Source: Rhodopirellula europaea 6C (GTDB lineage: Bacteria > Planctomycetota > Planctomycetia > Pirellulales > Pirellulaceae). Taken from it: 36,347 nucleotides of DNA. Location of the stretch: assembly GCF_000338295.1 (NCBI RefSeq), contig NZ_ANMO01000203.1, positions 1 to 36,347 of the forward strand. Direction: 5' to 3'. Each line of letters begins with the position of its first letter. Position 1 is the first letter of the stretch. The position numbers and the translations under genes were made by a program. Positions 9,667 to 36,346 of the stretch are shown piece by piece. The notes under the pieces are model-generated. The model had not been told where the DNA came from. It was given only the letters and a program-made list of their open reading frames with translations, and ran no database searches.

Positions 9667-9748
9667 TGGGAGTTGGGAGTTGGGAGTTGGGGAGATGGGG
9701 AGTTGCTTTTCTCCCAGACTCCCCTTCTCCCAGACTCTTTCACTTCAC
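9667..9748. repeat. GGGAGTT repeat with inverted arm (copy R1)
   Basis: GGGAGTT occurs three times in tandem, followed by GGGGAGATGGGGAGTT, a GCTTTT centre, and then TC-rich CTCCCAGACTCCCC blocks that are inverted copies of the same motif. The array ends exactly at the stop codon of the triple-TRASH gene. It belongs to the repeat family dispersed through the copper locus and could form an imperfect hairpin in mRNA between that gene and the DUF305 gene. Confidence 0.85.
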
Positions 9749-10849
9749 TCAGCGAAGCTCAGGAGCATCGACTCCTTGTGACTTCAGAACAGCCAGATAC
9801 TTCTGTGGCTCAGCGGCGATCTTTTTCGCGCAACCGGGACAACATATGTAGATTGCTTTGCCATCGGCGTTGACTTTGTAGGGGCCGCCCATAGCGTCGA
9901 GTGGTTCGTCCATCACGGGGCATTTCTTCTGTGCCGCAATGAACCGCTTATCGGCATCGGACACTTTGAACACGCCGGGGCGGACTTGTTCGGTGTTCGT
10001 CGCGACAACGCTGGCGGGAGACGCAGTCTTGTAGACCATCGCCAGATACTTTTCAGGTTCGGATTGAACCTTCTTGATGCAGCCTTTGCAGCATAGGAAC
10101 AACGGTTTTCCACCGACCAAGAGTTTGATCGGTTGGCCCATTCCGCCGAGCGGTTCGTCCATCACGGGGCAGACCGCTTGCTTGGTGATGAGTGCCGCAT
10201 CTGATTCGGTGAACTTGACGACTTCGACTTTCGGCCTGGCTTGGATGAACTTTTCAGGATTGGCTTTCAATGCGTCAACGCATCCAGCACAGCAAACGAA
10301 CAATCGTTGCCCAGCCACTTCCACGGCGACGGGATTGCCCATGCTGCCGAGTGGCTTCCCGCTTACAACGCAGACCTTTTGTCGTGCGATCGCGACCGCA
10401 TCCAGTTCGGATTGCGCCGGCGAAAGAACCATCACATCTTGGTAAGCGAGGGTGTCGGGGGCCGCACCGACAAGTTGAACGTCGACCGTTAGTTGCCGAC
10501 CAACGACGCGGGACAGATCAACATCAGCTTTGAGTGCGTTGTCCTCACTGGGGAACAAGTCATAACGATAACGTTTGGCATTGCCTTCAACGGAAACACT
10601 CGCCACACCACGACTCTGTTGAACAGAAACGGGTTTGCCGCCCGAATCATAGAGGTAGACCTTTAAGCCGGCAGTGGTGACAAGCGTTTCTGCTTGTAGG
10701 TTGCCGACCGCTTTGAGGGTCCCTTTGTGCGGACCGGTGGTCGACGTCTGACGTTGCGAGTGTTGGTGGTTGCCCGCATCCGGTACCGCTTGCTGGGCAA
10801 ACAGCGTGGTCGGAAGAATTGCCAATCCTTCGCTGATGGACCCAAGCAA
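9749..10849 (-). CDS. Periplasmic protein with three TRASH/YHS-like metal-binding domains (5' end displaced)
   Basis: Three related domains of about 44 residues each end the protein (about 158-201, 225-269, 308-352). Each carries an N-terminal Cys in a CPVMDEPLGxMG-type motif and a CCxGC cluster (C186/C187/C190, C253/C254/C257, C336/C337/C340), typical of TRASH/YHS-like heavy-metal traps. The first domain reads CVVSGKPLGSMG. Residues 40-140 form a beta-rich domain (KVYLYDSGGKPV). Only a TTG start at 10849 is available, it lacks basic residues, and only half a signal peptide (LAILPTTLFAQQ) remains. The missing start, with SD and signal-peptide half, lies at 15754-15809. Joining 15809 to 10826 is in frame and gives 377 residues. 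In its present state it may not be exported or expressed. Confidence 0.85.
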   Translation of the reverse strand: MLGSISEGLAILPTTLFAQQAVPDAGNHQHSQRQTSTTGPHKGTLKAVGNLQAETLVTTAGLKVYLYDSGGKPVSVQQSRGVASVSVEGNAKRYRYDLFPSEDNALKADVDLSRVVGRQLTVDVQLVGAAPDTLAYQDVMVLSPAQSELDAVAIARQKVCVVSGKPLGSMGNPVAVEVAGQRLFVCCAGCVDALKANPEKFIQARPKVEVVKFTESDAALITKQAVCPVMDEPLGGMGQPIKLLVGGKPLFLCCKGCIKKVQSEPEKYLAMVYKTASPASVVATNTEQVRPGVFKVSDADKRFIAAQKKCPVMDEPLDAMGGPYKVNADGKAIYICCPGCAKKIAAEPQKYLAVLKSQGVDAPELR

Positions 10850-11447
10850 AGCGGCCAGCTATCCGCCTGGACCTCTGGAACTGCCCGACAACGAACCGGT
10901 CGTATTGACCGGCGAGAGTGCCGAGCAATTTGACCGAGCTTATGCCGCCTACTTTGCAATTCAGAAAGCTTTGGCCGCCGACCAAAGTCCTCCGCCGCTG
11001 GAGATGAACAAGCTCGATGAATCGCTGGGCATGGTGACGAGATTGGCGGACGTTCCCGATGAGGCTCAAAGTCATTTGCAAAGTGCCAAGCGATCCCTCG
11101 CACGAATGCAAGGTTCGCTGGAGCAGGTCCGGAAATCCTTCCGGCCGATCAGCCATTCGCTTCTCCGTGCGGCGACCATCGCTCGCGGCAAGCAGACGGC
11201 AACGAAGTTGGTTCACATGTACTGCCCAATGGTTCCGGGTGGTGGTGGCGATTGGATGCAACCTGAAGGCGAGCTGGTCAATCCGTATTGGGGCAGCGAA
11301 ATGCTTTCCTGTGGTGAAACGGTGAAGGAAATGGGAGTGAAGGAGATGGGAGTGAAGGAGATGGGAGTGAAGGAGATGGGAGTGAAGGAGATGGGAGTGG
11401 GGAGTGGCCAGACTGGTAGTGATGCGCTGCAAGGAGAATTGAAATGA
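10770..11447 (+). CDS. CusB C-terminal domain (DUF3347-like), detached by inversion
   Basis: The frame lacks a signal peptide. An ATG at 10836 is the most likely present start, but family-like sequence begins earlier, at PSLMDPSKAA (10827). Residues with the pattern FDRAYAAYFAIQKALAADQ and the end motif YCPMVPGGGGDWMQ/NPYWGSEMLSCGE match the DUF3347/metal-binding C-terminal domain that follows CusB-type adaptors in planctomycetes. The CusB on the opposite strand (15786-17357) stops exactly where this piece should begin (QLAGN, then PSLMDPSKAA). Joining them gives a 722-residue CusB. The tail is five VKEMG units from a 15-bp repeat. The stop overlaps the next gene start (ATGA). On its own it would be a cytosolic fragment, probably non-functional. 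Confidence 0.8.
   Translation: MPASGTACWANSVVGRIANPSLMDPSKAASYPPGPLELPDNEPVVLTGESAEQFDRAYAAYFAIQKALAADQSPPPLEMNKLDESLGMVTRLADVPDEAQSHLQSAKRSLARMQGSLEQVRKSFRPISHSLLRAATIARGKQTATKLVHMYCPMVPGGGGDWMQPEGELVNPYWGSEMLSCGETVKEMGVKEMGVKEMGVKEMGVKEMGVGSGQTGSDALQGELK
11322..11407 (+). repeat. 15-bp tandem repeat in the cusB 3' end (copy R2)
   Basis: The unit GTGAAGGAGATGGGA is present five times (first unit with one change), followed by GTGGGGAGTGG. In the cusB frame it encodes VKEMG repeats at the extreme C-terminus. It lies about 40 bp upstream of the four-helix-bundle gene and belongs to the same family as the repeat after that gene. Confidence 0.95.
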
Positions 11448-12448
11448 ATGAGCGAGTACGGTCACATCGCGATTTGATCGTTTTTCAAAAATCGTTTGCT
11501 GCTGGAAAACGCATCTTTGAATTGTCGAAGTCGTTTCCCCGTGAGGAGATGTATTCGTTGACCGATCAGGTACGTCGTTCGTCACGGAGTGTGAGTGCCA
11601 ATGTTGCAGAGGCATGGCGAAAGCGACGCTACGAAAAGCATTTCTGTAGCACGATGAATATTGCAGAGGCAGAAGCCGCCGAAACGCAGGTTTGGATTGA
11701 GTACGCTGCTGCGCACAGCTACCTCGATACGGACACGACGAAACAGGCGATCGAGTTCTACGACGAGATTTTGCGGATGATTGTCGCGATGATTCACGGC
11801 TCGTCGAAGTGGTGCGTCGACTTTAAGGCGGGAGTGAAGGAGTCGGGAGTGAAGGAGTCGGGAGTGAAGGAGAATGGGGAGACCTACAACATCGAGAATG
11901 ACTATCCCTTACTCGATCAACAACTTCTCTTAGCTCCCACCTCCCCTACTCCCACCTCGGAGCGAAGCGATGCCACCGAACACGGGCAGAGCCATCGCTC
12001 GGGCGACGTCGGCACCTCGGCCGGTCGCCATCAGAACGGGAACGAGTGCGACCAGCGTGGTTGCGGTGGTCATCAAGCACGGCCGAATTCGCCTGACGCC
12101 CGCGTCAATCGTTGCGGCTCGAATGTCAGCGACTGTGTTCAGTCGTCGTCGCGTGAAGACTTGATCGAGATAGGTAGCGATCACGACGCCGTCGTCAACT
12201 GCGATGCCGAAGAGGGCGATAAACCCAACCCAAATCGCGGTGTTCATTTCGGCTCCGTAGATCGCCAGAAGAATCATGCCGCCGCCAAAAGCGACCGGGA
12301 TTCCAGCGAACACGGCCAGCGTGATCGGAACGTGACGAAATTGCAGGTAGATGACCAACAAGTTGATAACGATGACCAGCGGCACCAACCACATCAGCCG
12401 ATTGTTGGCTTCGATTTGATTGCGGAAACTTCCGACGGCTTCGAGTGA
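11444..12448 (+). CDS. Four-helix-bundle protein, 23S rRNA intervening-sequence (IVP/Avd-like) family; 3' read-through
   Basis: Residues 1-125 match the four-helix-bundle family TIGR02436 (proteins first seen in 23S rRNA intervening sequences; distant relatives include Avd of diversity-generating retroelements). The motifs are RDLIVFQKSFA, FPREEMYSLTDQVRRSSRSV, ANVAEAWRKRRY and the final helix EILRMIVAMIHG. Such proteins are basic and may bind nucleic acid. Residues 126-145 are VKESG units from a 15-bp repeat. After about residue 176 the frame runs antisense to cusA, so that 159-residue tail is an artefact of the inner inversion. Undoing the inversion gives ...SERSDA and a TAG that overlaps the cusA ATG, a 177-residue protein. 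The start overlaps the cusB-part stop by 4 nt. Confidence 0.8.
   Translation: MNERVRSHRDLIVFQKSFAAGKRIFELSKSFPREEMYSLTDQVRRSSRSVSANVAEAWRKRRYEKHFCSTMNIAEAEAAETQVWIEYAAAHSYLDTDTTKQAIEFYDEILRMIVAMIHGSSKWCVDFKAGVKESGVKESGVKENGETYNIENDYPLLDQQLLLAPTSPTPTSERSDATEHGQSHRSGDVGTSAGRHQNGNECDQRGCGGHQARPNSPDARVNRCGSNVSDCVQSSSREDLIEIGSDHDAVVNCDAEEGDKPNPNRGVHFGSVDRQKNHAAAKSDRDSSEHGQRDRNVTKLQVDDQQVDNDDQRHQPHQPIVGFDLIAETSDGFE
11829..11958 (+). repeat. Repeat pair after the four-helix gene (copy R3)
   Basis: Three copies of the 15-bp unit GTGAAGGAGTCGGGA (11829-11880) are followed 50 bp later by inverted-sense CTCCCACCTCCCCTACTCCC (11934-11953). Together with R2 this repeat brackets the four-helix gene. The inverted arm stops 12 bp from the inner inversion breakpoint at 11970. 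Confidence 0.9.
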
Positions 12449-15400
12449 GTAGCCGGGCGGGAGGTTAAGTGAAGGAGTGGAGGAGTTGGAAGAAAAGGAT
12501 TTTGGCGTAAGCCCTCCTTCACTCCCAACTCCTTCACTCCCAACTCCCTCACTCCCAGCTCCCAACTGTGCCAACCGCAACTCCTCTTCAATCGCCGCGA
12601 TTGTCTCCAGATCTCCGGCTGCTCCGTTAGAGGAAAAAGAAACGTGAGCGATCAAACGAGCGTTCTCGCTGTTGATCGCACCCGGTCCCCACGTCGTTTC
12701 TAGCTTGGCCAATTCACCCAGTGGAACCACGGCGCCACTATGCGTAACCACTGGTAAACGATCGAGTTGTTCGACTCGCTCACGCAGATCGCGGTTGTAA
12801 CGCAAGCGGACGGGATAACGCTCTCGCCCTTCGACCGTATTGATCAGGTTCATCCCGCCGAGTGCAGTCTCGATGACTTGGTTCACCATCTGAGCCGACA
12901 TGCCGTACCGCGATGCGGCTTCACGATCGACGGTGAATTCGATGTACGGCTTCCCAAGAACGATGTCGGGATTGACCGTTCCTGAATTGACGTAGGGCGA
13001 TTGCTTGAGATGTTCGGATACCTGCATCGCTGCATCGGCGAGTGTTTGCAGGTCGTCGCCGTAGATACGAATCGCCATCGGGGCTTTGATGCCGCTTTGC
13101 AACATCACGACGCGGCCCTCGATGGGTTGAAGTGGCGAAGCGGGCGTCACTCCCGGCAGCGTGGCAACGCGGTTGATTTCATCCCAGACATCACGAGCCG
13201 TCACGCCGGGCCGCCATTGTTCGCGGGGTCGAAGCATGACGTAGGTTTCGACCATCGCGGCGGGGGCAGGATCGAGGGCCGAATCAATCCGGCCAATCTT
13301 GCCCAGAACGTCCTTGACCTCTGGGATTTGGCCGATCAACACGTCCTGCGTTTGCAGCATCTGCATTGACTGACTGAAGCTGGCCGCCGGGTAGAGCGTT
13401 GGCATGTAGAACCAACTGCCCTCGTCCAGTGCGATCCAGTCGTCGGTCTGAAGCCCGGTGAACGTATGCTTGAGGTCGACGTAGCCGGGCAATTCGTTGG
13501 GGCGGACGCCGAGTTTCTGGACGACTCGCTCAAACGGAGCGACGACAAATGGAAGTCCGAACCATCCGCCAAGTCCCATCAGGACGATGAACGATGGCAA
13601 TAGCCAAAAGGCGAATTTGTGCCGCAGGAACAGCGAGAGCGTTGGTCGATAGACCCAAACGATCGACCGACTGACGATGTTTTCATCCGTTGGTCGGACG
13701 CGTTCACGAGTCAACATCCAAGCAAGCCCGAAACCTACGGCGGCGGAGACAACCGTTACGAGACCGAGGGAAAGGCGATGGTCAAGGAGTGGGGGAGATG
13801 GGGAGTTGGGAGAGAAGGAGTGAAGGTAGTCAACCAACTGATGCCCCCAGACAAAAAAGGCGGTCAGGCCGAACAATGCGGCACCCGCAATCGCCGCTAT
13901 CAACGCGGTTTGCTTTCGATAGTTCGCACTGCGAAGCAGCAATTGGCAAAGCGTGGGAACGATCGTCACAGCCGCAATCAACGCCGCTGAAATGGCAAAC
14001 GTCTTGGTCATCGCCAGCGGCGCGAACAGCTTGTAGTCGCGACCCGTTAGGAAAAACACCGGCAGGAAGCTGACGATGGTTGTCGTGACAGCGGTAAGCA
14101 CGGCGGGCGCAACCTCCACCGCCGCATCGTAGATGACGTCGCTTCGCGAGCGGGGAAGCTGGGAGTTGGGAGTAGGGGAGTCGGGAGTAGGGGAGTCGGG
14201 AGTAGCAAGGACCGTACTCCCACCTCCTTCACTCCCAACTCCTTCACTCCCACCTCCCGATTCCCATTCCGCCAAGTGTTGATAGATGTTTTCGCTGACG
14301 ATAATTGCCATGTCGACCATCGTCCCAATCGCGATTGCGATTCCCGCCAGAGACATGATGTTCGCCCCGACGCCAAACACATTCATCGCGATGAACGACA
14401 GCAAGACGGCAATCGGAAGCGTGACCGCGACGATGAAGCTGCTGCGGATGTGCAACAGGAACAGCAGAATGACGACCGCCGTGATCAGGATTTCATCCCG
14501 CAGTGCGGTGGAAAGTGTCGCCACCGTTTCGTCGATCAGGCCGGTGCGATCGTAGATGCCCTTGATGGTGACGCCTTCGAGCGACGGTTCGATTTGAGTG
14601 ATCTTTTCTTTCACTCGTTCGATGACCGCTCGCGGATTCTCGCCGTATCGCATCACGACGACGCCACCGACCGCCTCGGCTCCGTTGTAATCGAGTGCCC
14701 CGCGACGAAAGTCTGGCCCGAGTTGCACGGCAGCAATGTCGCGAACTCTGACTGGTACGCCTTCTCGCTGCATAATGACGGCTTGCTCGATGTCTCGGAT
14801 GGCCTTTTCGGTGTCACCGTCGCTGCCGAGAAACCCCTTGCCGCGAACGATGAATTCCATACCGCCGGTTTCGACGGTCTTGGCTCCGACATCGAGATTG
14901 CTTCCACGTATGGCCGTCACGACTTGGTCGAGCGGGATGCCATGAAAACGAAGTTTGTCTGGGTCGACTTCAATTTGATATTGGCGAACGTAACCTCCGA
15001 TGGAAGCGACTTCGCTGACACCCTCGACGGCCTGCAAGTCGTACTTGATAACGAAATCCTGCAGACTCCGTAGGTCAGCCAGACTCATGCCATCCTTGGG
15101 CGGCACCAAGACGTAGTAGAAGACTTGTCCAAGCCCGGTCGCGTCGGGACCAAGCTGAGGCACAACTCCACCTGGTAGCTGGGCGGCAGCGGTGCCGAGT
15201 TGTTCGGACACTCGGCTGCGTGCCCAGTAGAAGTCCACGCTGTCTTTGAACGTGACTTGGACGAAGCTGTATCCGAACATGCTCTTGCCGCGGACCGATT
15301 CGGCTCCCGGCACCGCCAACAGCGAAACGCTTAGCGGGTAGGTGACCTGATCTTCGATGTCTTTCGGCGAACGCCCCGGCCAAGGCGTCAGTACGATGAC

Positions 15401-15556
15401 TTGGTTCTCGCCAATGTTCGGAATCGCGTCAATCGGAACACGGTTGTAGCTGATCCAACCGAAAACCGTGACGCCGATCGTCAGCAAAACGATCAACCAA
15501 GGTTCTTTAACGCAAAAGCGAATGATGCCTCTAAGCATGGCCGTCGAAATCGTCAC
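11930..15556 (-). CDS. cusA: CusA-like heavy-metal RND efflux pump, C-terminus cut off by inversion
   Basis: This is the inner-membrane proton-driven pump of a CusCBA-type system. The N-terminus (native ATG at 15538, MLRGIIRFCVKEPWLIVLL) and motifs such as SVSLLAVPGAESVRGKS, VASIGGYVRQYQIEVDP, AIGTMVDMAIIVSENIYQHL and GIAVDDGVVIATYL are typical of CusA. The current frame ends ...ALPVFGG followed by 13 foreign residues. The proper ending (MAVEIVTLFVVPVVYC..., 47 residues) lies on the other strand at 15537-15680, so the last transmembrane helix is missing and the pump is probably inactive as arranged. The repaired length is 1,236 residues. Three in-frame GGAGTGAA-type insertions occur, near 12.5, 13.8 and 14.2 kb. 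Confidence 0.9.
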   Translation of the reverse strand: MTISTAMLRGIIRFCVKEPWLIVLLTIGVTVFGWISYNRVPIDAIPNIGENQVIVLTPWPGRSPKDIEDQVTYPLSVSLLAVPGAESVRGKSMFGYSFVQVTFKDSVDFYWARSRVSEQLGTAAAQLPGGVVPQLGPDATGLGQVFYYVLVPPKDGMSLADLRSLQDFVIKYDLQAVEGVSEVASIGGYVRQYQIEVDPDKLRFHGIPLDQVVTAIRGSNLDVGAKTVETGGMEFIVRGKGFLGSDGDTEKAIRDIEQAVIMQREGVPVRVRDIAAVQLGPDFRRGALDYNGAEAVGGVVVMRYGENPRAVIERVKEKITQIEPSLEGVTIKGIYDRTGLIDETVATLSTALRDEILITAVVILLFLLHIRSSFIVAVTLPIAVLLSFIAMNVFGVGANIMSLAGIAIAIGTMVDMAIIVSENIYQHLAEWESGGGSEGVGSEGGGSTVLATPDSPTPDSPTPNSQLPRSRSDVIYDAAVEVAPAVLTAVTTTIVSFLPVFFLTGRDYKLFAPLAMTKTFAISAALIAAVTIVPTLCQLLLRSANYRKQTALIAAIAGAALFGLTAFFVWGHQLVDYLHSFSPNSPSPPLLDHRLSLGLVTVVSAAVGFGLAWMLTRERVRPTDENIVSRSIVWVYRPTLSLFLRHKFAFWLLPSFIVLMGLGGWFGLPFVVAPFERVVQKLGVRPNELPGYVDLKHTFTGLQTDDWIALDEGSWFYMPTLYPAASFSQSMQMLQTQDVLIGQIPEVKDVLGKIGRIDSALDPAPAAMVETYVMLRPREQWRPGVTARDVWDEINRVATLPGVTPASPLQPIEGRVVMLQSGIKAPMAIRIYGDDLQTLADAAMQVSEHLKQSPYVNSGTVNPDIVLGKPYIEFTVDREAASRYGMSAQMVNQVIETALGGMNLINTVEGRERYPVRLRYNRDLRERVEQLDRLPVVTHSGAVVPLGELAKLETTWGPGAINSENARLIAHVSFSSNGAAGDLETIAAIEEELRLAQLGAGSEGVGSEGVGSEGGLTPKSFSSNSSTPSLNLPPGYSLEAVGSFRNQIEANNRLMWLVPLVIVINLLVIYLQFRHVPITLAVFAGIPVAFGGGMILLAIYGAEMNTAIWVGFIALFGIAVDDGVVIATYLDQVFTRRRLNTVADIRAATIDAGVRRIRPCLMTTATTLVALVPVLMATGRGADVARAMALPVFGGIASLRGGSRGGGS
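12468..12565. repeat. In-frame repeat insertion in cusA (copy R4)
   Basis: AGTGAAGGAGTGGAGGAGTT is followed, after a 25-bp centre, by inverted blocks CTCCTTCACTCCCAACTCC in tandem. In cusA it encodes a low-complexity GVGSEG/SSNSSTPSLN loop just before the conserved LPPGYSLE motif in the periplasmic region. It keeps the frame and has no stop. Confidence 0.9.
13783..13827. repeat. In-frame repeat insertion in cusA (copy R5)
   Basis: AAGGAGTGGGGGAGATGGGG, GAGTTGGGAG and AGAAGGAGTGAAGG follow each other. In cusA it encodes LHSFSPNSPSPPLLDH between two hydrophobic segments. It is the shortest copy and has only one arm orientation. Confidence 0.85.
14152..14270. repeat. In-frame repeat insertion in cusA (copy R6)
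   Basis: GGGAGTTGGGAGTAGGGGAG and two GTCGGGAGTAGGGGA-type units are followed, after a short centre (CAAGGACCG), by inverted CTCCTTCACTCCCAACTCC blocks. In cusA it encodes a Gly/Ser/Pro/Asp-rich stretch (ESGGGSEGVGSEGGGST, then TPDSPTPDSPTPNSQLP) inserted after the conserved ENIYQHLAEW helix, in the cytoplasmic loop. Confidence 0.9.
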
Positions 15557-15680
15557 TCTGTTTGTGGTGCCCGTCGTCTACTGCGGCTTCAAAGAGTTCA
15601 AGATGAATTTCGGCTTAGCAGACCACCACTGGGCGGGCATCGAAGACACGCCGCGGGAGGAGCTCCCTCATGCAGCGTAA
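15537..15680 (+). pseudogene. Detached C-terminus of CusA (47 codons)
   Basis: From ATG 15537 this frame reads MAVEIVTLFVVPVVYCGFKE and continues to FKMNFGLADHHWAG, ending at TAA. This is the conserved last transmembrane helix and cytosolic tail of CusA-type pumps, which the cusA frame on the opposite strand lacks. It overlaps the native cusA ATG (15538-15536) on the complementary strand, as expected if the two halves meet at the inner inversion breakpoint. As it stands it has no promoter or SD of its own and is read in the opposite direction to the rest of cusA. Confidence 0.9.
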
Positions 15681-15741
15681 TCCATTGAATCAAATTCGTA
15701 TTCCTGGCACGCGACGGACGTGTGCCAAATCTTTCTGCTTC

Positions 15742-15809
15742 AGGAGAGCAAGAATGAACGCAACTACCCTTCCATTGCCGGCCCATCAAGCGCTGGCGGT
15801 ACTGCTAGC
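15742..15809 (+). pseudogene. Orphan start: SD, ATG and signal-peptide half of the triple-TRASH protein
   Basis: AGGAG (15742-15746) precedes ATG 15754 by 7 nt. The frame reads MNATTLPLPAHQALAVLLA, a hydrophobic signal-peptide core, and then runs antisense into cusB. It lies 74 nt after the CusA C-terminal stop, where the next operon gene would be expected. Joined to 10826 it completes the triple-TRASH protein signal peptide in frame (LAVLLA-LAILPTTLFAQQ), with a cleavage site near LFA-QQ. Confidence 0.82.
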
Positions 15810-17357
15810 GTTCCCGGCGAGTTGCATCTGCGAATCAATCAGGAAGTTGCCATTCGTTGCAACCGTTTCGCCCGACGACATGCCTTCCAAGATGACCGCC
15901 CGATCGTCCGTCATCGGTCCCACCGTCACTCGGCGAATTTCAAAACGACCAGGATCCGTTTCGACATACACGACGCTGTTCTCACCCGTCATCAACACGG
16001 CATCGCGAGGAACCGTGACAACTTGCTGTTTCGGCAATGGCTCGCTGGCGTAACCGAGTTTTGACGTGGGAATCAAATCCATGCCACAGATAGGGCAATC
16101 GCCCGGTTGCTCGCGGATTACCTGCGGGTGCATTGGGCTGATGTACTTTCCTGCGAGCGCCGGATCGTAGATTCGATCTTGGCGAATGGCTGGAACGTAG
16201 ACGCGTGCGGTCGCGTAGTCGCCCGGCTTTAACTTCGCATCCGGGTTCAGCATTTCGACCCGAATTTGAACGGTGCGGGTCTTGGAATTCACGGTCGGGT
16301 CGATGAAGGCAACCCGCCCGGTGAAGACTTCGCCGGGCAACGATGAGACTTCCGCTTCAACCTGTTGTCCGAAACGAATGCGAGCGGCATCGTCCGGAAA
16401 TAGATCGAGCATCAACCACACGGTCGACAGATCGGCGATGCGATAAATCTTGTCGCCCGTCTTGATGTAGTCACCTTCAACGGCGTGCTTCTCGATCACG
16501 GTGCCCTTGATCGGCGAGCGCACACGAATCCGGCTTTCAGCTTTCCCGCGTGAACGAAGCTCGGCGACTTGGTCCTCGGTAAAACCAAGCTCGATCAGCT
16601 TTTGTTTCGAGAGTTCACCCATGTTGGACGAACCACCCAATCGTTTCAGTTCGCTGCCTTGCACAGCGGTCAAGTATTCAACTTGGGCCGAATACAAGTC
16701 GGGACTGTAGATCAACGCGAGGTCATCGTTCTCTTCAACGGGCACACCGACATAGTTGGCGTAGAGCTTTTCGATGCGACCACCGACGTAGGCGGAGATC
16801 GTTGCCAACTTGCTCTCGTCATAGTCGACGGATCCGATGGTGCGAATGGTTTGCGAGACGGGACCAAGTTCGGCGGTTGCGGTTTGAATTCCAATCAAGC
16901 GACGAGCGGCCGGTTCGATCGTCACTGACATTCCATCACCGCCACCACCGCCGGTTGCTTTGACCAACTCCATTGCGCAAACCGGACAACGTCCCGGTTC
17001 ACTCGATGGCGGAGTACACATCATCGGACAGATATAGCGGTCATCCCCGGCGTTGGTGTTCGCGACAGAGGGCTTCGCCGAGTCAGCAACCGGCACCAAC
17101 TTCATCGCACAAATCGGGCAATTCCCCGGCTCGTCCTGCCGAATCTGCGGATGCATTGGACACGTATAAATCGTTTCTCCATTGTTGGAACCGGCATCGT
17201 CGCTTGTCGCGGCCATATCGCCGTTGCGAATCCAGCCCTGCCTCTGGGCCAAGCCAACAAGTGCAATGCCCAACACGAACACAGCCAACAAGACACCGGC
17301 ATGCGTAGCCGTCCGGCCAAGCCATTGAAGGCCGTTTAGCTTTGAGCGAATGTCCAT
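15786..17357 (-). CDS. cusB: CusB-like RND periplasmic adaptor with three heavy-metal-binding domains, C-terminus detached
   Basis: This is a membrane-fusion adaptor linking CusA to the outer-membrane channel. A membrane anchor lies at about residues 20-37. Two heavy-metal-binding motifs follow: YTCPMHPQIRQDEPGNCPIC (64-83, then AMKLVPV) and YICPMMCTPPSSEPGRCPVC (108-127). Barrel-sandwich and beta-barrel adaptor sequence follows (YVGGRIEKLYANYVGVPV, VEGDYIKTGDKIYRI). A third metal motif sits at 405-431, but its first Cys is Ser (YISPMHP). After QLAGN (residue 512) seven foreign residues and a stop replace the expected PSLMDP continuation, which lies at 10827 on the plus strand. The gene follows the metal lipoprotein and a long GGAGTGAA array. 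The truncated form keeps all adaptor domains and might still work. Confidence 0.92.
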   Translation of the reverse strand: MDIRSKLNGLQWLGRTATHAGVLLAVFVLGIALVGLAQRQGWIRNGDMAATSDDAGSNNGETIYTCPMHPQIRQDEPGNCPICAMKLVPVADSAKPSVANTNAGDDRYICPMMCTPPSSEPGRCPVCAMELVKATGGGGGDGMSVTIEPAARRLIGIQTATAELGPVSQTIRTIGSVDYDESKLATISAYVGGRIEKLYANYVGVPVEENDDLALIYSPDLYSAQVEYLTAVQGSELKRLGGSSNMGELSKQKLIELGFTEDQVAELRSRGKAESRIRVRSPIKGTVIEKHAVEGDYIKTGDKIYRIADLSTVWLMLDLFPDDAARIRFGQQVEAEVSSLPGEVFTGRVAFIDPTVNSKTRTVQIRVEMLNPDAKLKPGDYATARVYVPAIRQDRIYDPALAGKYISPMHPQVIREQPGDCPICGMDLIPTSKLGYASEPLPKQQVVTVPRDAVLMTGENSVVYVETDPGRFEIRRVTVGPMTDDRAVILEGMSSGETVATNGNFLIDSQMQLAGNASSTASA

Positions 17358-17365
17358 GATTTGAA

Positions 17366-17532
17366 GATGGGGAGTGAAGGAGTGAAGGAGTGAAGGAGTG
17401 AAGGAGTGAAGGAGTGAAGGAGTGAAGGAGTGTGGGAGTCTGGGAGTCTGGGAGACGGGGAGAAACGCTACTCGCAGACTCCCCTTCTCCTTGACTCCCT
17501 AACTCCCCTTCTCTTTCACTCCTTCACTTCCT
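17366..17532. repeat. GGAGTGAA octamer array with inverted arm upstream of cusB (copy R7)
   Basis: GGAGTGAA is repeated eight times in perfect tandem from 17371 to about 17434 (last unit altered), then TGGGAGTC units, GGGGAGAAACGCTACTCGC as the centre, and TC-rich inverted blocks (GACTCCCCTTCTCC, TTTCACTCCTTCACTTCCTC). The array fills the space between the lipoprotein stop (17516) and the cusB ATG (17357), and its last bases overlap the lipoprotein's codons. The central part resembles that of copy R1. Confidence 0.95.
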
Positions 17533-34951: not shown

Positions 34952-35227
34952 TCAAAGGTCTCGGGTCGACGAACCGTCCAAGGGCGTCGCCGGAAAATTC
35001 TGGCACGTCCTTGCCCCGCATTCATCCACGGAAGAACCCAACCATGTCGCCACGCACATTCTTCCCCGTGCTGGCTTCCAGCTCTACTCACGACGACGGT
35101 ACCCGACGCACCTATCGCCGGCGTTTCGTCGCCTTAGCGATAGCGGTCGAGACTTTCGACATACTCAGTGGCGACCGAGACTATTGGCGACTTCGCTACC
35201 TCAGATCGTTAGGCCGCGTGAGTCACG
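34952..35227. other. Short intergenic stretch
   Basis: A 276-bp spacer between convergent genes. A plus frame (34714-35385) runs through it but is antisense to the oxidoreductase at its end and has no motif. No terminator with a T-run is evident. Confidence 0.35.
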
Positions 35228-36346
35228 CTACTCGTTCAATCGAACCGCTCGGCCGTCGCGGATGGATTGGGCCATTGCGGCCAACACTCGCATGTCGGCT
35301 AGACCTTCTTCCCCCGGCGTTCGCGGCTTTCGATCCTCCAAGATATCTCGTGAGAAATGATCCATCTCCGACGCGAAATGATTGACCTCGGCGATCTCGT
35401 GATGGGTCACCACCGAATGCGAATCCGCATGGCTCTTTTGATGTGTCATCAATCGCTGGCCGTTGTAGCTGAATGCCGGCGTCAGCTCGATCAAACCATC
35501 GGTACATGCGACGCGGTAGAAGTCATTGCGATGAGCGCCGAATCCGCAACTGATGTTGGCCAGAACGCCGGAGGGAAACCGCAGCACGCAAGAAACGCTT
35601 TCGGGCACTTCGCGAAACCGTGGATCGTCGGTGGGCTGGTGTGCTTGAGCAAACGCCTCAACAGGTTCTTCGCCGGTGACATAACGAGCCGCGTTGATCG
35701 GATAGACGCCCACATCGCCGACCGGCCCGCCACCTAGTTCCGCGGCCAATCGAATGTTGGGGGCTTCGACGTTGATACTGAAACTACCGTCGAACGTCTT
35801 GATCTCACCAAACCGTTTTTCATCGCACATCTGCATGACTTTGCGATTCAGTGGTTCGTAGTGCAGCCGGTAGGCGATCATCAACTTGCGTTTTGCCTCC
35901 TCGGCCGCGGAAATCATTCGCTGACACTCTTCGATGGACACCGCCATCGGCTTTTCGCACAGCACATGCTTCCCTGCCCGCAACGCGCGGACTGTGAACT
36001 CGGCGTGCATTGAATTTGGCAAGACGATGTAGACGACATCAATGCGGTCGTCTTCTAAGATCGTGTCGAAATTCTCGTAGTTGTAGATCGCGTTCTTTTC
36101 GATTCCGTAGGCTTCCGCAACGGTCTTTGCCTTGTCGGGATGGCCGCTCACCAGAGCGGTTGGCTCCGACAGATCGCACTGCCCGAAAGCGGGCATGATC
36201 TGCCCCAGAGCGAGTTGGCCGAGACCAACGACGGCCCAGCCAATTTTCTTCTTTGGCACCTTTGGCAATTTCAAATTCGGCGGCTGGTCGTTTGGCGGAG
36301 CGAGTGGCACTTGGTCGCCCGACTTGTTCAATGAGCTGCCGCCGAC
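35228..36346 (-). CDS. Gfo/Idh/MocA-family oxidoreductase (GFOR-like), N-terminus beyond the window
   Basis: The frame is open to the window end; TTG 36331 is only a placeholder start, since codons continue upstream (VGGSS before LNKSG), perhaps from a Tat signal peptide as in GFOR-like enzymes. The Rossmann domain begins IGWAVVGLGQLALGQIMPAF with the G-x-G-x-x-A-type NAD(P) fingerprint, followed by LPNSMHAEFTVRAL and CEKPMAVS, which carries the conserved EKP. The C-terminal half has GGGPVGDVGVYPINAARYV, close to the GFOR substrate motif. These enzymes oxidise or reduce sugars, often periplasmic in planctomycetes. About 370 residues are present, close to full length apart from the signal. Substrate unknown. 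Confidence 0.9.
   Translation of the reverse strand, partial: VGGSSLNKSGDQVPLAPPNDQPPNLKLPKVPKKKIGWAVVGLGQLALGQIMPAFGQCDLSEPTALVSGHPDKAKTVAEAYGIEKNAIYNYENFDTILEDDRIDVVYIVLPNSMHAEFTVRALRAGKHVLCEKPMAVSIEECQRMISAAEEAKRKLMIAYRLHYEPLNRKVMQMCDEKRFGEIKTFDGSFSINVEAPNIRLAAELGGGPVGDVGVYPINAARYVTGEEPVEAFAQAHQPTDDPRFREVPESVSCVLRFPSGVLANISCGFGAHRNDFYRVACTDGLIELTPAFSYNGQRLMTHQKSHADSHSVVTHHEIAEVNHFASEMDHFSRDILEDRKPRTPGEEGLADMRVLAAMAQSIRDGRAVRLNE

Follow-up and report, generated by a model that had tools for sequence, protein, structure and literature searches.

The window analysed here, i.e., the whole stretch of DNA under study, is the complete contig C203 (36,347 bp) of G000, a draft genome of 7,191,307 bp in 273 contigs, with 99.93% completeness and 4.48% contamination. 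The region considered contains the genes for CusB and CusA, an outer-membrane efflux (OEP) gene, a gene for a four-helix-bundle protein (PF05635) and a gene for a protein with TRASH/YHS domains. The core of cusA scored 801 bits against TIGR00914, which is above the cut-off of 701 bits for CusA/CzcA heavy-metal RND permeases. The four-helix gene encodes a member of the 23S rRNA-intervening-sequence/four-helix bundle proteins, as it scored above the cut-offs of both PF05635 (100 bits vs. 33.8) and TIGR02436 (96 bits vs. 24). The best named matches to cusA were from Rhodopirellula, the genome being that of a Rhodopirellula-like marine planctomycete, and no plasmid relatives of the island were found by megablast. 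Near the right end of the contig, positions 35099-36128 share 96-97% identity with the beginnings of two other contigs, C208 and C147; the protein encoded there was recognized as a GFO/IDH/MocA oxidoreductase rather than a transposase.

The window contains a copper-efflux operon in which four genes appear to have been damaged by two DNA inversions, one nested in the other. When aligned with its counterpart in the relative G006, the operon consisting of cusB, cusA and the TRASH-domain gene shows four cuts. The resulting segments are found in the order A-B-C-D-E vs. A-D'-C-B'-E in the native arrangement, which corresponds to two nested inversions, both balanced: an outer one of ~5 kb (10824-15812) and an inner one of ~3.6 kb (11970-15538). 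The segments and joints are as follows.

9749-10823, minus strand: segment A, body of the TRASH/YHS-domain gene, native first codons missing (YHS/TRASH matches; matches G006 downstream of 166470)
10824-10825, no strand: left outer joint, AA (comparison with G006)
10826-11339, plus strand: segment B, part 1, C-terminal domain of cusB, in the opposite orientation to cusB (97% identity with 162286-162785 of G006, where it immediately follows cusB)
11444-11969, plus strand: segment B, part 2, four-helix-bundle gene, native stop lost, frame continuing to 12448 (PF05635, TIGR02436, ORF list)
11970-11973, no strand: left inner joint, ATGC (comparison with G006)
11974-15534, minus strand: segment C, core of cusA (ATG at 15538, minus) without the last 47 codons (TIGR00914; 96% identical to G006)
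15535-15538, no strand: right inner joint, GCAT (comparison with G006)
15537-15680, plus strand: segment D, part 1, last 47 codons and stop of cusA, turned (contiguous with cusA in G006)
15754-15810, plus strand: segment D, part 2, initial codons of the TRASH-domain gene, turned (MNATTLPLPAHQALAVLLA, like the G006 start MNATTFPLLAHPTLVVLLA)
15811-15812, no strand: right outer joint, TT (comparison with G006)
15813-17357, minus strand: segment E, cusB lacking the C-terminal domain (HlyD_D23 and HMBD matches; 96% identical to G006)

The locus on contig C44 of G006 is colinear and on one strand, with cusB, the part encoding the C-terminal domain of CusB, cusA, the tail of cusA and the TRASH-domain gene following each other. 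Identity to G006 amounts to 0.963 for segment E, 0.972 for B, 0.962 for C, 0.919 for D and 0.951 for A. In G006, cusA is intact, encoding 1168 aa with GGMAVEIV near the end, cusB is a single frame of 694 aa, and the native TRASH-domain gene encodes 383 aa starting with MNATTFPLLAHP. The TRASH start in segment D resembles that of G006 and is separated from the body of the gene in segment A. Since the partners of the outer joints adjoin each other in G006 (162286/162287 and 166470/166471), no bases were lost at these joints. Losslessness is shown wherever G006 allows a test; G006 has no four-helix gene between cusB and cusA, and the native joint between B and C therefore rests on those relatives that do have this gene. 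The sequences common to the joints are short, i.e., 4 bp (ATGC/GCAT) at the inner and 2 bp (AA/TT) at the outer ones. At a random junction, an overlap of at least 4 bp is expected with a chance of ~1.6% (0.016) and one of at least 2 bp with a chance of ~16% (0.156). The microhomology alone is therefore weak evidence; the comparison with relatives is strong evidence.

The inner inversion had already been reported in the first-pass annotation, and its description holds. The cusA frame on the minus strand ends with ALPVFGG followed by 13 unrelated residues in the ORF translation, the conserved ending MAVEIVTLFVVPVVYC is located on the plus strand from 15537, and the ends of the inverted segment are indeed ATGC (11970-11973) and GCAT (15535-15538). 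Reversal was said to restore the GGMAVE sequence of CusA, and these pieces are contiguous on one strand in the intact cusA of G006. Also the proposal that this inversion is nested in an outer one was borne out by the order of the segments and the joints relative to G006. Flipping the inner segment alone would leave cusA facing cusB, and the outer inversion (10824/15811) is also needed to obtain the G006 order. The observation is larger than first reported, with four cuts and a second, outer inversion besides the inner one.

The native position of the four-helix gene (11444-11973) is between cusB and cusA. The gene is present, in full or in part, in five loci of relatives (L038, L048, L058, L067 and L069) and is absent in G006. 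In L048, L058 and L069, its stop codon natively overlaps the start of cusA as ATGCTTAA, which is the kind of overlap with the cusA ATG that had been predicted to arise by reversal; the pieces of the window, when rejoined, would give ATGCTTAG. In L038, the letters of the overlap are identical, but the frame of the four-helix remnant stops earlier, and in L067, the gene is present without overlapping the start of cusA.

The comparison with relatives included 60 loci besides the window: 58 from a search for cusA matches, G006 and the paralog on C120. These loci are not all independent (the contigs of L034 and L035 are as long as G009:C21 and G011:C6; L044 and L045 have the same match coordinates). 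The tail was located directly downstream of cusA and on the same strand in 43 of the 43 loci in which both parts were found, and none of these showed the flipped form; in the remaining 17, one of the two cusA parts was missing at the search sensitivity used. The segments encoding CusB, its C-terminal domain and CusA were all present in 36 loci and in close order in 33 of them; in L080 and L081, the order is the same but the gap is wider, and L082 has cusA first. Tail and TRASH-domain gene were both found in 38 loci, with the latter closely downstream in 29 and the best TRASH match elsewhere or further off in the other nine.

All four genes would be affected by the rearrangement: the last helix would be missing from CusA, the C-terminal domain from CusB and the start from the TRASH protein, and the four-helix gene would no longer have its stop. 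In the assembled locus, a CusA with a complete C-terminal last helix is not encoded, as the tail lies apart and turned (15537-15680). The best 19-residue mean hydropathy is 2.06 in the lost segment vs. 0.76 in the new end, in agreement with the earlier claim that the last transmembrane helix is missing, and the lost segment aligns near the chain end of the sequence of the E. coli CusA structure. The cusB frame (15786-17357, minus strand) encodes 523 aa vs. 694 in G006; the C-terminal piece of cusB gave no Pfam match at an E-value of 0.01 and no NCBIfam match. Apart from the cuts, the frames of the operon are intact. The window cusA shows 95.6% amino-acid identity with that of G006 over 1117 codons, with a dN/dS of 0.20 and no further break, and the event, if real, is therefore probably recent.

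Because cusA, cusB and the TRASH-domain gene are cut and the four-helix gene reads through, the operon copy in the window is presumably inactive. The pump had been described as being in an OFF state; that it is dead is a fair inference, whereas ON/OFF switching found no support in repeats, a recombinase or a second orientation. A paralogous cusB-cusA-TRASH operon is located on C120 (L033, 5826-13244) in the native order, with stop-to-stop frames of 769, 1181, and 464 residues and with cusA DNA that is 71-76% identical to that of the window copy. This intact paralog may cover for the presumably dead copy, so that the strain may still export copper. A scan for promoters and terminators was uninformative, with fewer hits than the shuffle means (1 vs. 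2.9 and 5 vs. 9.2).

The explanation that best fits these sequences, with a probability of roughly 0.72, is that of a real, recent and inactivating complex rearrangement, in which two balanced, nested inversions would have affected an operon that originally had the usual layout on a single strand (cusB, four-helix gene, cusA, TRASH-domain gene). We infer that it took place in the cell, by reciprocal breakage and rejoining. Two lossless inversions sharing 2 and 4 bp and nested in one operon are rare a priori. How the ends were joined can only be guessed: possibly, subunits were exchanged between two breaks made by a type II topoisomerase. This guess is prompted by the 4-nt overhang, which would suit the 4-bp inner joint, and by the lack of a Ku match and of an inverted-repeat site; the 2-bp overlap of the outer joint is a poor match to such an overhang. 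Ku-dependent end joining is unlikely, as no PF02735 match was found in G000 in a search for which the control was positive in one of 14 genomes, that of Bacillus subtilis. Homologous recombination between the repeat arrays discussed below was rejected, since none of the joints lies in an array, although the inner left joint is within ~10 bp of one.

Among the alternatives, an artefact of assembly, scaffolding or library construction survives best, although it is unlikely: the cell would have a normal operon and the contig would have been joined wrongly. Such an error could be envisaged in a draft genome of this many contigs, at a locus crowded with 11 repeat arrays in 8 kb, one of which comes so close to the inner left joint, and none of the other loci compared shows the rearranged form. 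However, the joints are reciprocal, lossless where G006 can test them, and outside the arrays, and there is no N in the window. Furthermore, no colinear inverted block of at least 150 bp, the smallest size counted, was found in 563,621 bases aligned to G003 (171,426 of C11, 345,515 of C216 and 46,680 of C120), mostly core chromosome rather than islands; a genome-wide problem with chimeras is therefore unlikely. G003 is a close complete relative with 86-90% identity over long blocks (82-93% in the long blocks of this control). The alignment contained three plus-strand rows of at least 150 bp with 71-78% identity, which were read as paralogs: one, on C216, has its match ~370 kb away; the other two, next to each other on C120, match ~30-45 kb from the matches of their neighbors, in a region where C120 and G003 otherwise show no colinearity. 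Chimeras generated by multiple displacement amplification (MDA) are described, in an excerpt of PMC1855051, as inverted sequences with intervening deletions; on that description, an MDA chimera does not fit, as the joints are balanced without intervening deletion. None of the papers listed in the literature searches dealt with this locus by title or abstract, and the sequencing method of the genome was not found either.

Eleven purine-rich arrays (GGGAGTGAAGGAG type) are present in the window, all within 9668-17520 (303 per Mb of window), and their density elsewhere is 3 (C216), 5 (C11) and 27 (C120) per Mb, and 0-5 per Mb in three stretches of G003. Between cusB and the OEP gene, at 17370-17530, an array and an inverted partner are found (83-nt arms, 73% complementary, 16 nt apart), a pair that could form a large hairpin. 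Compared with its G006 counterpart, the window cusA has gained three insertions that keep the frame (differences in gap length of 69, 45, and 90 bp). When 13 selected CusA sequences were aligned, repeat-like inserts were seen in the linker after QHLA(D/E)WE in the window, L058, L069 and L052, and shorter, other inserts in L038, L043 and L047; in the second linker, before LNLPxGY, such repeat-like inserts were found in the window, L058 and L069, and in the third linker in the window only. A stricter search for repeats, covering 42 loci with both cusA parts, revealed arrays in the operon in three of the five loci with a full four-helix gene (the window, L058 and L069; not L048, where the flank is cut, or L067), in none of one locus with a four-helix remnant (L038), and in two of the 36 without the gene (L049 and L052). 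These numbers are only suggestive of arrays going together with the four-helix gene. A rather improbable extension would be that the gene and the arrays form a locally mutagenic element, whose repeats invade neighboring genes, entering the same linkers of cusA in frame in several lineages, and whose resulting breaks led to the nested inversions.

A phase-variable switch, in which both segments would invert reversibly to turn the pump on and off, is highly improbable, even though the inversions are exact and balanced with a short core, and reading the segment in reverse would give cusA an intact frame and start context. According to an extract of PMC11892184, invertons are bounded by inverted repeats of 10-40 nt. 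Repeats of that kind (~10-40 nt) are absent from the ends of the inverted segments, where the cores are of 4 and 2 bp only; the arms beyond them match at chance level (3/25 and 5/25 for the inner, 5/25 and 6/25 for the outer inversion). No recombinase was recognized among the window proteins scanned, which represent part of the window ORFs. A second orientation was found neither in the assembly nor in the relatives; in a search of the strain's own genome, with 40 of 57 candidates scored, only C203 and C120 matched (12 matches). A phase switch was rejected on site structure, on the relatives and on the lack of a recombinase recognized among the proteins scanned. A single replication-based event with several template switches between strands has equally little in its favor, since, for all the 2-4 bp overlaps at the joints and the purine-rich arrays nearby, the joints pair exactly, and template switching is expected to leave duplications or losses.

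If the two balanced inversions are real, the window shows, with unusual clarity, how a bacterium in which no Ku match was found can carry nested, balanced inversions that share hardly any homology, and a route of rearrangement that is rarely caught becomes testable. It also warns that an exact inversion is not always a phase switch. The crowding of arrays at a locus with the four-helix gene may be a more general phenomenon than the inversions.

With respect to known systems, the locus corresponds to a CusBA-type heavy-metal RND efflux operon, with the same gene families, order and strand as in G006 and most loci of the relatives and with a CusA above the TIGR00914 cut-off, but in the window, three of the genes are cut and a four-helix gene lies between cusB and cusA. 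It resembles invertons in showing an exact, balanced inversion that alters gene integrity, and differs from them in lacking the 10-40 nt inverted repeats; nor was a recombinase recognized nearby or a second orientation seen. Like MDA chimeras, it has short-overlap inverted joints within a span of 10 kb; however, it is balanced and has no intervening deletion, and the other parts of the genome that were compared showed no excess of inversions. Chromosomal inversion by illegitimate recombination shows the same 2-4 bp overlaps and absence of long repeats at the joints; what sets the window apart is that a single 5-kb operon underwent two such events, balanced and nested, in a genome with no Ku match.
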